NCBI GenBank assembly: GCA_027622195.1
Contig: JAQBZO010000002.1
Location: 1-64,000, forward strand
Length of the DNA: 64,000 nt
From: Planctomycetota bacterium
Lineage (GTDB): Bacteria; Planctomycetota; Phycisphaerae; Phycisphaerales; SM1A02
Direction of reading: 5' to 3'
In this document: positions 37,781-48,639 of the stretch, in pieces
Numbering within the stretch: the first letter of the stretch is position 1
How the letters are laid out: each line of letters begins with the position of its first letter
Position numbers and translations under genes: made by a program
The notes under the pieces: model-generated
The model's database searches: none
The model's input: only the letters and a program-made list of their open reading frames with translations
Told to the model about the DNA's origin: nothing

Positions 37781-39106
37781 ATGGCTGGCATCAAGCAACC
37801 GAGCGACAAGAGTCATTTTCTTCTTCCCGACCTCGGCGAAGGATTGGCTGAAGCTGAACTCATCCTTTGGAAAGTCAATGCTGGCGATTCGGTGAAGGAG
37901 CAACAGACTCTGTGCGAGATGCAGACTGACAAAGCGCTCGTTGAAGTGCCGAGTCCGTGGACGGGTGTTGTCTCTGAGTTGTGCGGCGGCGCGGGTGACA
38001 TCATCAAGGTCGGTGCGGTCCTGGTGCGCTACAAGATCAACGCGAATGTTGTCGCGGTGGCTCCGAAGCCGACTTGTCTTTCATCCGCCATTGCGGCTGG
38101 AGTGCCAGAGGCGAAACAAGCAACTACAACTGATGCAGATCAAGGAACCGTGGTCGGCACGATGAGTGGATCGCTCGATGTCAGTGATCGATTCGCACGC
38201 AAGGGACAAGAACACGTTTCAGCAGTGGCACCATCGGTGATCGATGGCAAGGCGCTTGCGACTCCAGCGGTGCGCGGGGTTGCACGAAAACTTGGTGTGC
38301 AGATCAATTCCGTCGCTGGCACCGGTCGCGGTGGACGGGTCACTGCTTCGGATGTTGAACAATTCGCCTCGAGTGGAACGAGCGACCCGAGTGTTGCGAC
38401 GCCAACAGTCGACAAAGATGGCAACTCTTCGCGCATTCCATTCCGTGGCGTTCGCCGAAAAATTGCGGAAGCCTTGGCGAGAAGTGTGCAGACAGCGGTC
38501 CACTTCACCGTCACGAATGAAGCGGATGTGACGGCACTCGACGCCTATCGTCGCGACTACAGCAAGATCAAGGGAAAGAAGTTGAGCATGCTTCCCTTTG
38601 TGATGCGTGCGGTGTGCGTGGCGCTTCGTCGGCATCCAGCACTCAATGCCATTGTCGATGATGCCAATGCTGAAATTCTGGTCAAGGGCGTCATCAATCT
38701 TTCGCTCGCCGTCGATACAGAAACCGGTTTGATGGTGCCTGTCATTCACGGGGCCGACCACAAGAGCATCGTAGAACTTTCGGACAGCGTGAAGCGACTC
38801 GCTGAGCGCTGCCGTGATCGCTCGATCGCGCGCGAGGAAAGTCTTGGCGGCACATTTACGATTAGCAATGTGGGTTCGTACGGCGGCATGTTCGCCACGC
38901 CGATTATCAATTACCCGGAAGTGGGCATCCTCGCCGTGGGGCGTGCGCGTGAAACAGTCTTGGTGAAGGATGGACGCTTCTATGCGGGATCGACACTTCC
39001 GCTTTCGTTGTCGTGCGATCACCGAGTCGTCGACGGCGCTGAGGGCGCCCGATTCCTCAATACGCTCGTGACCTTGCTGGAAGATCCTTCCACATTCGTG
39101 GGATGA
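37781..39106 (+). CDS. 2-oxoacid dehydrogenase E2 (dihydrolipoamide acyltransferase)
   Basis: Lipoyl site MQTDKALVEVPSPWTGVV; E3-binding domain ATPAVRGVARKLGVQINSVAGTGRGGRVTASDVEQF; catalytic DHRVVDGAEGARFL. Confidence 0.96.
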   Translation: MAGIKQPSDKSHFLLPDLGEGLAEAELILWKVNAGDSVKEQQTLCEMQTDKALVEVPSPWTGVVSELCGGAGDIIKVGAVLVRYKINANVVAVAPKPTCLSSAIAAGVPEAKQATTTDADQGTVVGTMSGSLDVSDRFARKGQEHVSAVAPSVIDGKALATPAVRGVARKLGVQINSVAGTGRGGRVTASDVEQFASSGTSDPSVATPTVDKDGNSSRIPFRGVRRKIAEALARSVQTAVHFTVTNEADVTALDAYRRDYSKIKGKKLSMLPFVMRAVCVALRRHPALNAIVDDANAEILVKGVINLSLAVDTETGLMVPVIHGADHKSIVELSDSVKRLAERCRDRSIAREESLGGTFTISNVGSYGGMFATPIINYPEVGILAVGRARETVLVKDGRFYAGSTLPLSLSCDHRVVDGAEGARFLNTLVTLLEDPSTFVG

Positions 39107-39939
39107 ACTCCTCCACCGTCACGCTCGATGATCCTCGGCTTGAGGATTTCCGCTTCGTGCGCGAACGCGATTTGATGGGGCGCGATGGAAGGCCTGGTTT
39201 GTTCATCGGCGAGAGTGTGCTCGTCGTCGGTCGCATGGCGAGCGTTCCTGGGGTGCTGCACAAACTGTTATGCACTGAGCAACGCGAGCATGAAGCGCGG
39301 TTGATTGTGGATTCAGCACGGTCCATTGCTCCCTCTGGTCTCGAACCAGAACTCATCGTCGCTCCTGCCTCGGTGGTCGAGGCGATCACGGGGTTTCACT
39401 TCCACCGAGCCGTTCTCGCCACTGGTCGCCGCACCGTCGTCGAGTCGCGATCCGTCGAATCTGTTGCGCGTGGTGCGACACTCCTTCTCGCCTGTGAGGA
39501 CATCTCGAACATGGATAATGCTGGCGCACTCTTTCGAGATGCAGCTGCGTTTGGAGTCGATGGAGTCCTTCTCTCGCCCGATTCCCATGACCCGCTCTAT
39601 CGCAAGTGTCTTCGCACCAGCATGGGGCACGCGCTAAGTATTCCATTCGCCCGATCTGAGGATCTTCCCCAATCGCTCACGATGCTCGCGTCTCAAGGGT
39701 TTCGCATCATCGCCACAGTGATCGATCCCTCTGCGACGCCCGTCGAACAGGTTGCGCGAGCGAGCAAGCCGAGTCCTGTCGTCTTGGTGGTCGGACACGA
39801 ACACCGCGGACTTTCGCCCGCCATCCTCGCATCATGCACCGAGCACTCTCGCATTCCCATGGCGGATGGCGTCGATAGCCTCAACGTGGCCGTTGCCGCG
39901 GCGGTTCACCTTCATCATCTGCGGTGTCCACCACACTAG
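39103..39939 (+). CDS. TrmH/SpoU-family RNA methyltransferase
   Basis: EDISNMDNAGALFRDAAAFGVDGVLLS, VVLVVGHEHRGLSPA, IPMADGVDSLNVAVAAAV; ATGA overlap with E2. Confidence 0.92.
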   Translation: MNSSTVTLDDPRLEDFRFVRERDLMGRDGRPGLFIGESVLVVGRMASVPGVLHKLLCTEQREHEARLIVDSARSIAPSGLEPELIVAPASVVEAITGFHFHRAVLATGRRTVVESRSVESVARGATLLLACEDISNMDNAGALFRDAAAFGVDGVLLSPDSHDPLYRKCLRTSMGHALSIPFARSEDLPQSLTMLASQGFRIIATVIDPSATPVEQVARASKPSPVVLVVGHEHRGLSPAILASCTEHSRIPMADGVDSLNVAVAAAVHLHHLRCPPH

Positions 39940-39957: not shown

Positions 39958-41130
39958 GTGACTCCTGAATACCCCACGAACGCGCTGCCTTTTTCGGTGC
40001 CCTTTGCGCACCGCGTTGTCTTCACGCACGGACTATTCAATCTGGACAATGACGCGGCCGCGCACGCCATGAGTGAAGTGCTCGGAGGGTCGGATCCTGT
40101 TTCTTCTCGTGGAATCATCGCGTTTATCGACGATGGCTTTCACACGCAGTGGCCCGATTTCGACGGGGAACTGCGCGGTTGGTTGCAGGCGCATCTTCCC
40201 AATGTTGAGTTACGATCGGTCACGCGCGTTCCGGGGGGCGAGTCATGCAAGCAAGACATGCAACTCGTGGATCAGGTCATCGAAGCCGTCGAGCGGTGGA
40301 AGATCGATCGCCGCAGTGCTGTCCTCGCTGTGGGCGGAGGCGCAGTGCTCGATGCGGTGGGACTCGGTGCAGCGCTGTCGCACCGAGGTGTTCGCCACAT
40401 TCGCGTGCCCACCTCGGTGTTGGCGCAAGATGACGCGGGCATGGGTGTCAAGAATGGCATCAATCGCTTTGGAAAAAAGAATTTTGTGGGATCGTTCTCG
40501 CCGCCCGATGCGGTGCTGTGTGATCTCTCGCACACTCGCACACTCTCGGTTCGCCATCGTCGCGCTGGACTCAGCGAAGCGGTGAAGATTTTTGCGCTGC
40601 GCGATCCACACTGGTTTGCGAAGATGGAATCGTCCGCAATTGCACTGCGCGATGGTGCTCCTGAGGCACTCGAGCCTGTGATCGTGCAGTCGGCGCATTG
40701 GCATGTGCAGCACATTGTGCGTGGTGGAGATCCATTCGAGAGACTCGCCGCTCGTCCACTCGACTTTGGCCATTGGAGCGCGCATCGACTCGAGTCGCTC
40801 TCTCAGTTCGAGATACCACACGGCGAGGCGGTTTCAATCGGCATCGCGCTCGATTGCCACTATGCCAGACTTGCAGGATTGATGTCCAAGGACGCGTGCG
40901 ATCGCGTGGTGTCGCTCCTGCGAACACTTGGACTTCCGACATTCCATCCGCTTCTCGAACAGACCGCTGCCTTGATCCCAAGTCTCGAGGAGTTTCGCGA
41001 GCATCTCGGTGGACAGCTCACCATCACACTACTCCGCGAGATTGGCGAATCGGTGGATGTGCATGCGATGGAGACCGCTCTCCTCGAACGCGCGGTCCTC
41101 TCACTGAAGGCTGAGTCGTCCTCAAAGTGA
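39958..41130 (+). CDS. eboD: EboD-like 3-dehydroquinate synthase family sugar-phosphate cyclase
   Basis: AVGGGAVLDAVGLGAALSHRGVRHIRVPTSVLAQDDAGMGVKNGINRFGKKNFVGSFSPPDAVLCD; linked to eboE/eboC/eboF-like genes. Confidence 0.8.
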   Translation: MTPEYPTNALPFSVPFAHRVVFTHGLFNLDNDAAAHAMSEVLGGSDPVSSRGIIAFIDDGFHTQWPDFDGELRGWLQAHLPNVELRSVTRVPGGESCKQDMQLVDQVIEAVERWKIDRRSAVLAVGGGAVLDAVGLGAALSHRGVRHIRVPTSVLAQDDAGMGVKNGINRFGKKNFVGSFSPPDAVLCDLSHTRTLSVRHRRAGLSEAVKIFALRDPHWFAKMESSAIALRDGAPEALEPVIVQSAHWHVQHIVRGGDPFERLAARPLDFGHWSAHRLESLSQFEIPHGEAVSIGIALDCHYARLAGLMSKDACDRVVSLLRTLGLPTFHPLLEQTAALIPSLEEFREHLGGQLTITLLREIGESVDVHAMETALLERAVLSLKAESSSK

Positions 41131-41458: not shown

Positions 41459-42262
41459 ATGTACATTGATCCACACATTCATATGGTGAGCCGCACGACG
41501 GACGATTACCAGCGAATGGCGCAGGCTGGTTGCGTCGCGATCACCGAACCTGCATTCTGGGCGGGATACGACCGCGCGAGCGTGAATGGTTTTGTGGATT
41601 ATTTCAGACAACTCACCGATACCGAACCTCGGCGTGCGGCACAGTTCGGAATCGCCCACCACACATGGCTGTGCATCAATCCAAAAGAAAGTGAAGATGT
41701 GGGACTCGCGCGCGAAGTGCTTGGCGTGATTCCACGATTCATGGACCGTCCCAATGTGCTCGGCATCGGAGAGATCGGTCTCAACAAGAACTCGAAGACC
41801 GAACTCATCATCCTTGAAGAGCACATCGCACTCGCGAAGCGCACGGGTGTCTTGATGTTGGTCCATACGCCACACCTTGAGGACAAACTCAAAGGCACGC
41901 GACTCATCATGGACGCGATGCGAAACCAGTCGATTGATCCTGGACGCGTCTTGATCGACCATGTTGAAGAGCACACTGTTCCACTCGTGCTCGATCGTGG
42001 TTTTTGGGCGGGTATGACCCTGTATCCAGACTCAAAGGTGACTCCGCAACGCGCCGCCGACATATTTGAATTGCATGGGACAGATCGACTCTGGATCAAT
42101 TCTGCTGGAGACTGGGGTGTCAGTGATCCTCTCGCTGTGCCGAAGTGCCGCGTTGAAATGAAGAGGCGTGGTCATCTCGCCGAGACCATTCGCAAGGTGA
42201 GTTTTGAGAATCCTCTGCAGTTTCTCTCGCAGAGCGGTCGTTTCAAGATCACGACGGCATGA
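41459..42262 (+). CDS. eboB: EboB-like TatD-family metal-dependent hydrolase
   Basis: MYIDPHIHMVSRTTDDY, EIGLNKNSKTE, LVHTPH, VLIDHVEEHT, INSAGDWGVSD; location in ebo cluster. Confidence 0.78.
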   Translation: MYIDPHIHMVSRTTDDYQRMAQAGCVAITEPAFWAGYDRASVNGFVDYFRQLTDTEPRRAAQFGIAHHTWLCINPKESEDVGLAREVLGVIPRFMDRPNVLGIGEIGLNKNSKTELIILEEHIALAKRTGVLMLVHTPHLEDKLKGTRLIMDAMRNQSIDPGRVLIDHVEEHTVPLVLDRGFWAGMTLYPDSKVTPQRAADIFELHGTDRLWINSAGDWGVSDPLAVPKCRVEMKRRGHLAETIRKVSFENPLQFLSQSGRFKITTA

Positions 42263-42265
42263 GTG

Positions 42266-43723
42266 CTACGACCGAATCGCGCAACTCTCAACGGTGACGC
42301 GTTCTCCGCCACTCTTCAGCCATCCGTTGAATCCGCCTGAAACATTGCGGACATCGAACCCTTCCCGTTTGAGAAATGCTGCCGCCATAGCGCTGCGTAC
42401 TCCGCCTTGACAATGCACATGAAGGACTCGATCGTCGGGAATGTTGTCGAGTTGATCAGCGAGTCGGGTGTGTGCGATGTTGATCGATCCTAGAATCGAT
42501 CCCCGCACATGCTCGGCGGCTCGGCGGACATCAAGTACCACGGTGTGTGGCGCTGGCGTGTGCGCGAGGAGATTGCGAAGCGCCGACGGATCTTCCTCTG
42601 GAATCGACTCGAACTTCACTCCAAACTCACGACATGCGGCGATCTCGCTTGGATCAACCCACGCATCAATCATGTCGAGGCCAATGCGGACAAAATTGCG
42701 AATCACTCGTTCGCGTTGATCCTCTGGACACACGATCCACAAATGATCTTCTGGTTCAGCGTACGAACCAATGGTGAGTGTGAGGTTGATCCCCATCGTG
42801 CTCCAGAGCGAACCAGGAAGATGTGCCGCGCGGAACTCGCTCCAAGGACGAAGGTCGATGACGGTGATCTCTTCATTGAACGCGCGGCTGATTTCTTCGG
42901 CGCGCAATGTTCTCGGAGTCGGAAGGTGGCGCATCGATGGGACACCATCCCGATTCCACCCCTTCATCCTCGCGTAATACAGCGGAGGCTCGGGCTGAGC
43001 ATCAAGAACGTTCTGCACAAACACCTCTTCACCCGACGAGACGAGGTCGCAGAGAAGCGGCGAAAAACGCCGCTCATATCCGACGGTGGACTGAAGGACA
43101 GCTCCCAGCGACTTTCCACATGCACTCCCTGCCCCGTGTGCCGGCCACACTTGCACGAAGTCGGGAAGTTGTAGAAATCGCTTCGCACTCTCGGCGAGGA
43201 CGCGCGCACCGTCGACCGCGCTCTCTCTGACTCCGAGTGCTGATTCGAGGAGATCGGGTCGACCAAGATCGCCGACGAAGACGAAGTCTCCACTCACGAG
43301 TGCCATCGGCTCTTCTGCTCCAGATGCTCGGTCGCACACGAGGTACGAAACATGTTCAGGAGTGTGTCCAGGCGTATGTATCGCGACCAAAACAATTCCA
43401 CCCACTTCAATCGTGTCACCATCCGCGAGGAGTGTGGACTCGCACTGGGAGACCCACTTGCTCTGCCAATCGGGACCGCCGAGTCCAGACACGTAGACAC
43501 GTGCACTGGTCTTCGAGGCAAGTTCGCGCGCACCAGAGAGAAAGTCGGCGTGGATGTGCGTCTCGGCGACGGCGACGATCTTGAATCCGTGGGCCTTCGC
43601 AACATCTAGGACTCGATCGATATCTCTTGGCGGATCAATCACGATCGCCTCATGGTTGACCTGACATCCAATCAGGTAGCAAGCGTGCGCGAGATCTTCA
43701 TCGTAGATTGGTCGAACGAGCAT
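42266..43723 (-). CDS. MBL-fold metallo-hydrolase with two rhodanese-like domains (persulfide dioxygenase-like)
   Basis: ETHIHADFLSGA, HTPGHTPEHVSYL, SGDFVFVGDLGRPDL; C-terminal rhodanese active loop HVHCQGGVRSAMAAAFL. Confidence 0.9.
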   Translation of the reverse strand: MLVRPIYDEDLAHACYLIGCQVNHEAIVIDPPRDIDRVLDVAKAHGFKIVAVAETHIHADFLSGARELASKTSARVYVSGLGGPDWQSKWVSQCESTLLADGDTIEVGGIVLVAIHTPGHTPEHVSYLVCDRASGAEEPMALVSGDFVFVGDLGRPDLLESALGVRESAVDGARVLAESAKRFLQLPDFVQVWPAHGAGSACGKSLGAVLQSTVGYERRFSPLLCDLVSSGEEVFVQNVLDAQPEPPLYYARMKGWNRDGVPSMRHLPTPRTLRAEEISRAFNEEITVIDLRPWSEFRAAHLPGSLWSTMGINLTLTIGSYAEPEDHLWIVCPEDQRERVIRNFVRIGLDMIDAWVDPSEIAACREFGVKFESIPEEDPSALRNLLAHTPAPHTVVLDVRRAAEHVRGSILGSINIAHTRLADQLDNIPDDRVLHVHCQGGVRSAMAAAFLKREGFDVRNVSGGFNGWLKSGGERVTVESCAIRS

Positions 43724-43827
43724 AGGGTGGGTCCTCTTGATGGGCCGAGACATCACATTACTACATTGGCGCGCACGATTCCAGCACAATCTGTTTCCAC
43801 AGGAATGGCGTGCGATACCATTCGGCA

Positions 43828-44520
43828 ATGGCGCGGATCGACACCCATTCTCCACGCATTGGCATCAACGCCGATCTCGTCTCTTCTGGATCAGCACTAC
43901 GTCATTGTGTGAGGGAGGAGTATGTTCAGGCGGTGATTCGCGCTGGGGGAATCCCGATCATTCTGCCTGTATCCGCGACAGCGGGTGCTGAGACTCTCTC
44001 GCAACTTGACGGCATCGTCCTCACTGGCGGCGGCGACATTCATACACAATTAATGGGGATTGCTCTTCATGAGAAAGCCGAGTGCATGCATCCACAGCGG
44101 CAGTCGGCAGATTTTTCCCTGCTCACGGCACTCGATTCCTGTCCGAATATGCCTGTCCTTGGAATCTGTCTCGGCATGCAAGAAATGGGTGTTCACGCTG
44201 GAGGCCGACTCATTCAACATATTCACGATGTGTTGCCTGATGGAGATCGGCATGGCGGAGATCAGCTTCATCCTGTGACCACTGATTTCGGTTGCGGCAC
44301 CATCGCGTCGTGGCATCATCAGGTACTCGCCGATGCTGGAACAATGATCGCCGCTGGAACGAGTGATGATGGACTCCTTGAGGCGATTCGACATCCAACG
44401 CGTCCGTTCTATGTCGGTGTGCAGTGGCATCCTGAGCGAACCAAAGATGAACTCCTTGGACTCGGGATGTTCAAGCGACTCATCGAGGCAGCGCGTGCGT
44501 ACGCGGCAATGCAACGATGA
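43828..44520 (+). CDS. Class I glutamine amidotransferase-like, peptidase C26 (PuuD/gamma-glutamyl-gamma-aminobutyrate hydrolase-like)
   Basis: GIVLTGGGDIHTQLMG, VLGICLGMQEMGV (Cys), GVQWHPER (His/Glu). Confidence 0.85.
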   Translation: MARIDTHSPRIGINADLVSSGSALRHCVREEYVQAVIRAGGIPIILPVSATAGAETLSQLDGIVLTGGGDIHTQLMGIALHEKAECMHPQRQSADFSLLTALDSCPNMPVLGICLGMQEMGVHAGGRLIQHIHDVLPDGDRHGGDQLHPVTTDFGCGTIASWHHQVLADAGTMIAAGTSDDGLLEAIRHPTRPFYVGVQWHPERTKDELLGLGMFKRLIEAARAYAAMQR

Positions 44521-45746
44521 GTGCCACACTCGGATACTGCACGAATATCCATGCTGGTGCAACATTGTGCCAGATGTTGGATGAACTCGATCGGCACGCG
44601 GTGGCGGTTCGTCGGCGCGTCAACGAAAACACTTCTGCCGACGCGGCCACTCCACTTCCGATTGGACTCTGGCTGAGTGCGCGTCACGTCTTCACATTGA
44701 AAGAAGGTGGAGATCCTGCGCGCGCCGCGGGTCTCAGTGCATCGGATCCCATTGCGAGTTTGCGAGATTGGCTCACCGAGCGCGGACTTGAGGTGTTCAC
44801 GCTCAATGGATTTCCATACGGCGATTTTCACGGACCAGTGGTCAAGCGAGCCGTGTATGAACCGCACTGGGGCGACACGCGAAGAATGCTCCACACGATG
44901 GATCTTGCGGAGATTGCGGTGAAATTGGCGCCGATCGGGCAATCCGACTTCAGTATCTCGACTCTCCCACTCGGCTGGAGAGCAACGCTCTCGGCGAAAG
45001 ACGCGGCCGCTTCGATGGGAGTGGCGATGGCCAACCTTCATTCCCTTGTGCGATTCCTCTCTGAACTGGAGGACCGAACCGGCATCTGCGTTCATGTCGA
45101 TCTCGAGCCGGAGCCGGGGTGCATGATCGACCGCGCCGCGGATGTCGTCGTGTTTTTTGAGGCACTCGAAAAACAGGGCACCAATCCATCCCCCCACTCC
45201 ATGCTGAGACGCCATCTGGGAGTGTGCCACGACATTTGCCATAGTTCAGTCATGTTTGAGAGTCAGGAATTCGCCCTCGCTTCCTATCGTGCCGCTGGAA
45301 TCCAAATCGGCAAGGTCCAAATCAGCAGCGCGATTCAGTGCGATGGATCGGAGCGCGCCTTTCGTTGGCTTCAGCAATTCGTCGAACCGAAGTGGCTTCA
45401 CCAAACCTGTGTCATGGATGGAACGGGTGCGGTTCATTTCCATGATGATCTTGATGTCGCACTCGACACCGCACCCGATGGCCTGTGGCGTTCGCACTTC
45501 CACGTGCCGATTTTTTGTGACGAACTTGCTCCGCAGGGAGCGGTGATGAGCACACGCAGTGAAATCGAGGCATGCCTTGGGACCATCCTTCCGACAGATC
45601 GGATCGCTGCCTACGAGGTTGAAACCTATGCATGGTCAGCCCTTCCCGCTCACCTGCGAAAGGCAACACTTGCCGAGGATGTCGCCGCTGAACTTGCCGA
45701 AGCGAGAGCGATGTTGATCGCACGCGGACTCTTGCCTCAGTCGTAG
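44517..45746 (+). CDS. eboE: EboE-like TIM-barrel (xylose-isomerase-like) protein
   Basis: MSATLGYCTNIHAGATLCQMLDELDRHAVAVRRRV...; LWLSARHVF, VFTLNGFPYGDFHG, HVDLEPEPGCMI, GVCHDICHSSVMFE; ATGA overlap with upstream C26 gene. Confidence 0.82.
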   Translation: MSATLGYCTNIHAGATLCQMLDELDRHAVAVRRRVNENTSADAATPLPIGLWLSARHVFTLKEGGDPARAAGLSASDPIASLRDWLTERGLEVFTLNGFPYGDFHGPVVKRAVYEPHWGDTRRMLHTMDLAEIAVKLAPIGQSDFSISTLPLGWRATLSAKDAAASMGVAMANLHSLVRFLSELEDRTGICVHVDLEPEPGCMIDRAADVVVFFEALEKQGTNPSPHSMLRRHLGVCHDICHSSVMFESQEFALASYRAAGIQIGKVQISSAIQCDGSERAFRWLQQFVEPKWLHQTCVMDGTGAVHFHDDLDVALDTAPDGLWRSHFHVPIFCDELAPQGAVMSTRSEIEACLGTILPTDRIAAYEVETYAWSALPAHLRKATLAEDVAAELAEARAMLIARGLLPQS

Positions 45747-45784: not shown

Positions 45785-47131
45785 ATGCCCATCACCGCAC
45801 GGATCGCGGCGTTCTTGGAGCTCGTCCGCTTCGCCAATTGGCCCACCATCCTTAGCGATGTGCTACTTGGAATTGTGGTCGCGTTTTTTCTCTATGGAGT
45901 GCCTGCTGATCCATTCACTCTTTGGCGTGACGACTACTCAGTCCCGTGGAGCCGCATTCTTTGGACACTCGTCGGACTTACTTGCTTCTATTGGGGTGGG
46001 ATGGCACTCAATGCTGCGGTCGATGTCGCGACCGATGCGCAACAACGACCCGACCGTCCAGTGCCGAGCGGGCGGATTTCGCTTTCGGCCACGTGGTTCA
46101 TCGCTGTCACACTGTTGATCGTTGGCATCACTCCATTCGCGAACGCGTTTCCCTACGAAGGACTCCTCGCCACCTATGTCGGCATGGCGTGTTTGACCCT
46201 TGTCAAACCCTATCCCAACAGGCGTGGACAACCATGGGTGCGGCGACTCGGCACAGGATGGTTGATCTTCGGAGTCGTTGCATGTGTGGCGCGACTCGCG
46301 AGTGCATCGATCGATTACGGAGATCAATGGCGCGGACTCGCACACTCTCTCGATGCGGCGCTCCTTCTGATGGCCATCGTCCTCTACAACCTCGTCCACG
46401 CGCACGCACGCTGGAGCGTTGCATTGCTTGGACTCTGCCGCGCGCTCACCGTTCTCATCGCTGCGCTCGCCGCCGCGGAAGCAACCGCATGGCCATTCAC
46501 TGCTGCTGCACTGGCTTGGAAGGGATCTCCTGACTATGGATTCTTCCCCATCGTGATCGCAGCGGTTGGCGGCGGTGTGTACATCGCACTCGTCAGTTTG
46601 GTGGCAAGGCGTGAGGCTCCGCACCTCGCACGCAAGGTCGCGGGGGCAAGTGACGCTCCGCTTTTTTGTCACAAGTGTGATCATGGACTCGCCTTCCCAC
46701 CACCATCATGCTGCCCTGAGTGCGGCGCGGATCTCTCGATCTTGCCTGCCATTCACGCTGACGAGCGGCGGGCAATGAGTGCGCGCTGGGTGCTGATTCC
46801 CGCGATGTTTCTGGTGCTCTCGCCGTGGGTGTTTTCGGCATGGACCTATGACATTGCGCAAGATCGACTTCCTCCATGGTGGTTGATGAGCGTTGCAGCG
46901 TTTGCTTGCGGCGTCTACTTTCTCCTTATCGTCACACGAGCGGTTCGAGCCGCTGATGTGCATCCATCGCGTGTTCCACGCGCCGTTGGAGCGATGCTCG
47001 CCGCACTCCCAGCTGGACAAGGGGTCTTGATGGCTGCGCTCGGCGCACCCTATGCGGCGTTTTTTGCCCTTGGACTCGCAATCGCGGTCAAACTGCTTCA
47101 GCGAGTGCGTGCGTTGAGCATCGGTTCGTGA
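45785..47131 (+). CDS. eboC: EboC-like UbiA prenyltransferase-family membrane protein with internal zinc-ribbon insertion
   Basis: FYWGGMALNAAVDVATDAQQRPDRPVPSGRIS (UbiA Asp-rich region), YNLVHAHARWSVALLGLCRALTVL; FCHKCDHGLAFPPPSCCPECGADL zinc-ribbon. Confidence 0.8.
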   Translation: MPITARIAAFLELVRFANWPTILSDVLLGIVVAFFLYGVPADPFTLWRDDYSVPWSRILWTLVGLTCFYWGGMALNAAVDVATDAQQRPDRPVPSGRISLSATWFIAVTLLIVGITPFANAFPYEGLLATYVGMACLTLVKPYPNRRGQPWVRRLGTGWLIFGVVACVARLASASIDYGDQWRGLAHSLDAALLLMAIVLYNLVHAHARWSVALLGLCRALTVLIAALAAAEATAWPFTAAALAWKGSPDYGFFPIVIAAVGGGVYIALVSLVARREAPHLARKVAGASDAPLFCHKCDHGLAFPPPSCCPECGADLSILPAIHADERRAMSARWVLIPAMFLVLSPWVFSAWTYDIAQDRLPPWWLMSVAAFACGVYFLLIVTRAVRAADVHPSRVPRAVGAMLAALPAGQGVLMAALGAPYAAFFALGLAIAVKLLQRVRALSIGS

Positions 47132-47175: not shown

Positions 47176-48639
47176 ATGCGACGCGTTGCGGTTCTGAACA
47201 TTGTTGGACTTTCGACAGGGCTCTTGAGCGATGCAACGCCGCGGCTCAGAGAGTTCGCTCGTCACAGTGGTGGAGTGCGCACACTTCGTCCTCCGCTCCC
47301 CGCCGTCACGTGCACCGCGCAAACGGCGATGCTGACTGGCAAGCCCGCGCGCGATCATGGCATTGTCGGCAACGGTTGGTTTGACCGCGGTCTCGGAGAA
47401 GTCCACTTCTGGAAACAATCGAGCGGACTCGTCGAATCTCCTCGCGTGTGGGACAACGCACGCGCACGCGCTGGTACTACCTCCAGATGCGCCGATGGAT
47501 CCGCGTTCACTGCTGCGAATCTTTTTTGGTGGTTCAACATGGGATCGACGGTGGACATCGCTGTCACCCCGAGGCCGATGTATCCCGCCGATGGACGCAA
47601 GATTCCCGATGTGTGGACTCATCCACCCGAACTGCGTGATGCACTGCAATCGAAGCTCGGACGATTCCCCCTCTTTCACTTTTGGGGACCATCCGCTGGG
47701 ATTTCAAGCTCCGATTGGATTGCTGCGGCGGCGATGGAAGTGATCGCACTCCATCGTCCCACCCTCAGTCTCATCTATCTACCGCACCTGGATTATGCGC
47801 TTCAGAGACATGGACCAGACACGACGAAAGTGCGGCAAGATCTGCGCGAAGTCGATCGCATCTTCGGCGTCCTGATCGATTTTCTCAGAAAGAACGATAT
47901 CGAACCGATGGTCGTAAGCGAGTACGGAATCGCTCCTGTGTCAAAGCCTGTCTATCTCAATCGCGTCTTGCGAGAGGCTGATCTCGTTGAGGTGAGGAAC
48001 GAACTCGGGCGCGAGATGATCGACATTCCATCGTGCGCGGCCTTTGCCGTCTGCGACCACCAACTCGCCCATGTCGTGGTGAGAGACAAGGCGATGCACG
48101 CTGGTGTGCGCACGATTCTTGAATCAACAGCAGGAGTCGAACAAGTTCTCGACCGCGCGCAACAAGCCGCCGCTGGAATCGATCATGAGCGCAGCGGTGA
48201 TTTCGTCTGTATCAGCGAGCGCGACAGTTGGTTTGCCTATCCGTGGTGGATCGATGACAAGCGCGCCCCCGATTTCGCACGCACCGTCGACATCCACCGG
48301 AAGCCTGGGTACGACCCGTGCGAGCTCTTCTTTGACCCACAACTCTTGTTTCCAAGGCTGCGCGTCCTTGCAAAACTCGCGCTGCGCACACTCGGCATGC
48401 GCACTCTGCTCGATGTCATTCCGCTCGATGCGTCACTCGTCAAGGGATCGCATGGTCGAGTCGACAACGGTGCGATGTACGAACCATTCCTCATCGTGGA
48501 CGATCCGATGGTCGAAGGCCCACTCGCGATGGAGTCGGTGCACGATGTCATTCTTCGTCGTCTCTTCATCGATGAAGCGGATCCGCCGCACGCGCCATCG
48601 GCGATCGTTCGCACGAGTGCACGGCGTCACAAACTTTGA
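47176..48639 (+). CDS. eboF: EboF-like alkaline phosphatase/type I phosphodiesterase family protein
   Basis: PPLPAVTCTAQTAMLTGKPARDHGIVGNGWFDRGLGEVHFWKQS, YLPHLDYALQRHGPD, VVSEYGIAPV, VDNGAMYEPFLIVDD. Confidence 0.85.
   Translation: MRRVAVLNIVGLSTGLLSDATPRLREFARHSGGVRTLRPPLPAVTCTAQTAMLTGKPARDHGIVGNGWFDRGLGEVHFWKQSSGLVESPRVWDNARARAGTTSRCADGSAFTAANLFWWFNMGSTVDIAVTPRPMYPADGRKIPDVWTHPPELRDALQSKLGRFPLFHFWGPSAGISSSDWIAAAAMEVIALHRPTLSLIYLPHLDYALQRHGPDTTKVRQDLREVDRIFGVLIDFLRKNDIEPMVVSEYGIAPVSKPVYLNRVLREADLVEVRNELGREMIDIPSCAAFAVCDHQLAHVVVRDKAMHAGVRTILESTAGVEQVLDRAQQAAAGIDHERSGDFVCISERDSWFAYPWWIDDKRAPDFARTVDIHRKPGYDPCELFFDPQLLFPRLRVLAKLALRTLGMRTLLDVIPLDASLVKGSHGRVDNGAMYEPFLIVDDPMVEGPLAMESVHDVILRRLFIDEADPPHAPSAIVRTSARRHKL

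Follow-up and report, generated by a model that had tools for sequence, protein, structure and literature searches.

A Peptidase_C26-family hydrolase gene upstream of eboE is an inherited, lineage-specific insertion in planctomycete ebo clusters

The planctomycete DNA analyzed here (the window, a contiguous stretch of 64,000 nucleotides) contains an ebo gene cluster in which a gene for a Peptidase_C26-family hydrolase (C26) immediately precedes eboE. Comparison with related genomes shows that the insertion of C26 into the ebo cluster is real, inherited, and lineage specific. The explanation that we consider probable is a one-time recruitment of a general C26 hydrolase, which would be expressed with the ebo genes without carrying out a core ebo step. 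Under this explanation, a single-copy C26 gene, located apart from ebo in most relatives, would have entered the eboB-eboE interval a single time, in the common ancestor of a sub-clade within one planctomycete family (the relatives are on deposit as MAGs of Phycisphaerales or Planctomycetia). Since then it would have been kept upstream of eboE, often translationally coupled to it, so that both proteins would be made together, and it most likely retains a general role in the turnover of small gamma-glutamyl compounds. In a pathway as widespread as ebo, each additional enzyme that is inherited with the cluster hints at what the intermediates are.

Layout of the ebo cluster in the window

All six ebo genes could be assigned; they follow the order D-A-B-E-C-F, and eboE forms one cluster with the others. 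The names eboD, eboA, eboB, eboC, and eboF combine weaker profile matches with gene order and identity to relatives. The features are as follows.

39958..41130, + strand: eboD, sugar-phosphate cyclase/DHQS-like; PF01761 and PF24621; NF004852, 454.6 bits
41127..41444, + strand: eboA, 105 aa; named by its place after eboD and before eboB; 40-63% identical to the ORF found there in relatives
41462..42262, + strand: eboB, TatD-like; PF01026, 24.9 bits, under the cut-off of 27; 69-87% identity to the ORF in the same place in relatives
42266..43753 (ORF to 43855), - strand: MBL-rhodanese gene between eboB and C26; PF00581 and PF00753
43828..44520, + strand: C26 hydrolase gene, 230 aa from the ATG at 43828; alternative GTG start at 43810; PF07722, 129.6 bits
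44517..44520, + strand: ATGA, shared by the C26 stop and the eboE start, read from the sequence
44517..45746, + strand: eboE, TIM-barrel, 409 aa; NCBIfam NF035939 (TIM_EboE), 355.5 bits, cut-off 250
45785..47131, + strand: eboC, UbiA-like, 448 aa; PF01040, 44.3 bits; follows eboE in relatives
47176..48639, + strand: eboF, type I phosphodiesterase; PF01663, 200.3 bits; named also by position

The profile searches returned no Pfam or NCBIfam match for EboA, and the best NCBIfam match of EboC, NF035940 (EboC), scored 77.6 bits, under the cut-off of 250. EboC (448 aa) carries a C-terminal extension with a zinc-ribbon-like stretch, CHKC...CPEC. Upstream of eboD lies a gene for a SpoU-type RNA methyltransferase (39103-39939), a neighbor that recurs at this place throughout the family, whether or not the cluster contains C26.

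The MBL-rhodanese gene is inverted relative to the ebo genes and occupies the same place on the same strand in all three genomes of the window's genus that were read (G000, G376, and G580). Homology of its product begins near residue 41, and the true start is therefore probably at about 43723-43753, divergent from C26. The gene probably separates the ebo genes into two transcription units; we infer that a C26-eboE-eboC-eboF unit begins with C26, with eboD, eboA, and eboB upstream beyond the MBL-rhodanese gene. A promoter and terminator scan of 43600-44600 returned no sites.

C26-eboE adjacency in relatives and the origin of C26

Searches for EboE gave a match in 283 of 392 genomes from the phylum and in 106 of 121 from the window's family; C26 was searched for in the same 121 family genomes. 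The C26 matches form two groups, 42 strong ones (>200 bits and, for all but the window's own, 47-65% identity to the window C26) and 64 weaker ones, with at most one strong C26 per genome of the family sample. On the eboE strand and 5 to 3,334 bp upstream of eboE lie 38 of the 42 strong C26s, from 11 genera (here called linked C26s), and 20 of these 38 are within 85 bp of eboE, measured from match to match. One of the remaining four (G548) is split by a contig end, and the other three, all from genus g7, are on other contigs than eboE, in genomes whose ebo genes are split. None of the 64 weaker C26s is on the eboE contig; 53 of them belong to EboE-positive genomes and lie there on other contigs. 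The earlier note on this DNA had named a lack of C26-eboE adjacency in related genomes as grounds for refutation, and the adjacency was found.

The order eboB-C26-eboE was observed in every linked cluster in which eboB was on the stretch read. Extra genes in the eboB-eboE interval vary by genus and include MFS, redoxin-like, SIMPL, cytochrome c, epimerase, and MBL-rhodanese genes; among the interval genes, only C26 is present in every linked cluster examined and near eboE. In genera g279 and g6, the MFS transporter gene separates eboB from C26, and in g6 the redoxin-like gene separates C26 from eboE (L107:8090-9727, L114:7418-8971, and L114:9771-10487). Among 80 named C26 loci, the five with ebo genes near C26 are the five closest to the window C26 (48-58% identity). 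At one more locus, L248, the sole match near C26 is DHQ-synthase-like (31%), and the other 74 have no ebo genes within the available flanks. No C26 was found near the 30 EboE loci with the highest scores in the phylum, where about 1.5 kb on each side was covered.

The C26 ORF runs from 43810 (GTG) or 43828 (ATG) to 44520, and it shares the bases ATGA (44517-44520) with the start of eboE, as the earlier note had read. A 4-base overlap as such is ordinary, because eboD also shares four bases with eboA (41127-41130), and the ATGA was not taken as special by itself. Of the 17 checked junctions where no gene intervenes between C26 and eboE, 12 offer a start codon at -4, some of them together with another possible start; the 4-base overlap is possible in three or four genera. 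It is the inheritance of the overlap, not the overlap itself, that exceeds chance. The suggestion that C26 is co-produced with EboE finds good support in the gene order, with C26 on the same strand upstream of eboE in most genomes that carry a strong C26 and the 4-base overlap retained in several genera. Co-production of the two proteins is likely, and the two genes are presumably co-transcribed.

Each of the two genes also occurs without the other. In the family, 11 genomes carry C26 but no EboE, and 11 carry EboE but no C26, including G496 (91% complete) and G583 (90% complete); the EboE-positive genomes of genus g278 lack a strong-type C26. In the sister family f2, all nine genomes of the phylum sample carry C26, and none of the nine carries EboE. 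Most ebo clusters of the family have no C26 in the cluster, and it is absent from the clusters read from the rest of the family and order. These patterns indicate that C26 is not tied to ebo in general; with its presence failing to track EboE, we rejected C26 as a core ebo gene. Two genomes of the linked group that lack EboE or C26 (G406 and G529) were not counted as losses, as both cases may be assembly gaps: G406 has eboD, eboA, and eboB and 6.7 kb of contig past eboB, whereas the gap between eboB and C26 in relatives can exceed 6.7 kb, and in G529 eboB lies at a contig end.

The linked C26s form one clade, with support of 100/98 (99/97 in a tree with other rows), and the EboE proteins of the linked genomes are grouped weakly (62/8). 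Most of the examined unlinked C26s of the family lie in a FumC-(SIR2)-HEAT-TPR-C26-(M42)-GcvT-HMGL neighborhood. The same FumC-SIR2-HEAT-TPR-GcvT-HMGL neighborhood, whole or in part, is found without C26 in the linked genomes G463, G466, G585, G251, and G360, which implies that C26 moved away or was replaced; of this neighborhood, the window's own genome showed the M42-GcvT-HMGL part only. Judged by EboE, genus g268 is near the linked group, and it has its C26 in the old FumC-HMGL neighborhood. When g268 was added to the tree, the linked C26s grouped with the C26 of G325 from family f2 (97/87). A single clade of linked and g268 C26s was marginally tolerated (p-AU 0.056), and a single clade of all family C26s was not rejected (p 0.37). 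Given the tree placement and these tests, it is equally possible that a transferred copy displaced the resident gene and that the resident gene itself was relocated. The unlinked family C26s are 40-47% identical to the window C26 and share its CLGMQ and QWHPE motifs. Unlike the linked C26s, they are not near ebo genes and have GGDDP, often with HRQ, in place of GGDDID and HHQ; the C26 of G325, a genome with no EboE, also has GGDDID and HHQ.

The C26 protein and its predicted chemistry

The window C26 matches PF07722 (Peptidase_C26) over the whole domain, positions 3-219 of the 219-position profile, far above the cut-off of 20.5 bits. In an alignment of 17 homologs, C114, H201, and E203 are invariant, and both the nucleophile-elbow Cys and the His-x-Glu motif are present. 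The nearest solved folds to its AlphaFold2 model (pLDDT 95) are PuuD, SpuA, and Lin1909. The description of the gene as encoding a PuuD-like class I GATase fold therefore holds. From its Cys-His-Glu residues and its modeled PuuD/SpuA fold, C26 is predicted to be catalytically intact and would hydrolyze a gamma-glutamyl (or similar amide) bond.

The window C26 resembles PuuD of E. coli and SpuA of Pseudomonas in its Peptidase_C26 fold and family, in its Cys and HPE motif, and in TM-scores to PuuD/SpuA-type structures of mostly 0.83-0.87 on the query. It differs from them in having CLG for CRG after the catalytic Cys, in its identity of 26-28%, and in its ebo context. The PuuD equivalog profile NF008471 was not reached (71.2 bits versus a cut-off of 266). 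The nucleophile loop reads GICLGMQ, where alignments of PuuD, SpuA, and Lin1909 have (A/G)ICRGxQ, which bears out the earlier note's reading of this loop. All C26s that were read have CLG after the Cys, except for CMG and CYG once each. The GICLGMQ loop, minor variants included, is common to linked and unlinked C26s across the C26 subfamily of the order; carried by both alike, it is no evidence of an ebo-specific function and was discarded as an ebo mark.

A gamma-glutamylated intermediate had also been suggested, and this idea is weakened. A PF00120 search of 12 genomes gave a single match in each, always in a frame of 734-886 aa, and the frame of the window's genome also matches GSIII_N (246.8 bits) and so is a GSIII-type glutamine synthetase homolog. 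No separate PuuA-type ligase was found by this search of the 12 genomes (the window's assembly is 88% complete), which makes for a weaker case for a Puu-type gamma-glutamyl intermediate.

Alternative explanations and comparison with known ebo clusters

C26 could be a pure hitchhiker, brought to its place by gene-order drift in an eboB-eboE interval that tolerates insertions. The different extra genes found there in different genera fit this reading, as does the SpoU-type gene, presumably functionally unrelated to ebo, which likewise recurs upstream of eboD. We nevertheless regard it as somewhat unlikely, since C26 alone occurs in every linked cluster examined, stays near eboE, and has a possible 4-base overlap with it in several genera. 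Retention upstream of eboE over 11 genera while the other interval genes vary, together with the conserved overlap, is more than expected of a pure bystander, a point that also weighs against the favored recruitment of a general hydrolase. The same conservation of position and coupling would suit the opposite reading, that C26 is a true accessory ebo enzyme of this clade and works beside EboE, where it would remove a gamma-glutamyl or some other amide group from an ebo intermediate, and an MFS transporter or redoxin-like gene in the same interval of some genomes would fit such an extended pathway. Against it stand the C26-free ebo clusters that predominate in the family, the g278 genomes, the failure to find a PuuA-type ligase among the PF00120 matches, and genus g7, where C26 and eboE are on different contigs and the ebo genes are split. 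A role for C26 in the ebo pathway is possible from the sequence evidence, but the reading as a true accessory enzyme is unlikely, and the narrower proposal that the ebo pathway of this clade gained a dedicated hydrolase acting beside EboE is quite unlikely. The accessory component proposed by the earlier note was thus not established, with homologs occurring without EboE, EboE occurring without C26, and the linked C26s forming a single clade.

It is very improbable that C26 serves a Puu-type polyamine pathway as its hydrolase, the part played by PuuD in E. coli and SpuA in Pseudomonas. Its closest solved folds and sequences are indeed PuuD, SpuA, and Lin1909, but a PuuA-type synthetase was not found among the PF00120 matches, the PuuD equivalog score is far below its cut-off, and the loop has CLG, not CRG. 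One-time recruitment of a general hydrolase thus remains the explanation that we favor. If a dedicated hydrolase did act beside EboE, the ebo intermediate of this clade would bear a gamma-glutamyl or similar amide group. The family also offers a natural experiment, in that close relatives differ in whether C26 lies within the ebo operon, lies elsewhere, or is missing.

The eboA-F gene cluster has been described previously (PMC5133447, 2016; PMC6282210, 2018). Among the open-licence literature, neither of these papers mentions an amidotransferase in ebo clusters, and insertions of non-ebo genes are mentioned for other phyla (PMC5133447). No ebo clustering was seen in the three planctomycetes analyzed in that first survey (PMC5133447), whereas intact D-A-B-E-C-F clusters do occur in planctomycetes. 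Complete or nearly complete clusters of this order are common in the window's planctomycete order (L070-L077 and related loci). The window cluster is like known ebo clusters in having all six genes, in the order found in most clusters of the family; it is unlike them in having C26 between eboB and eboE and, within the window's genus, the inverted MBL-rhodanese gene as well.
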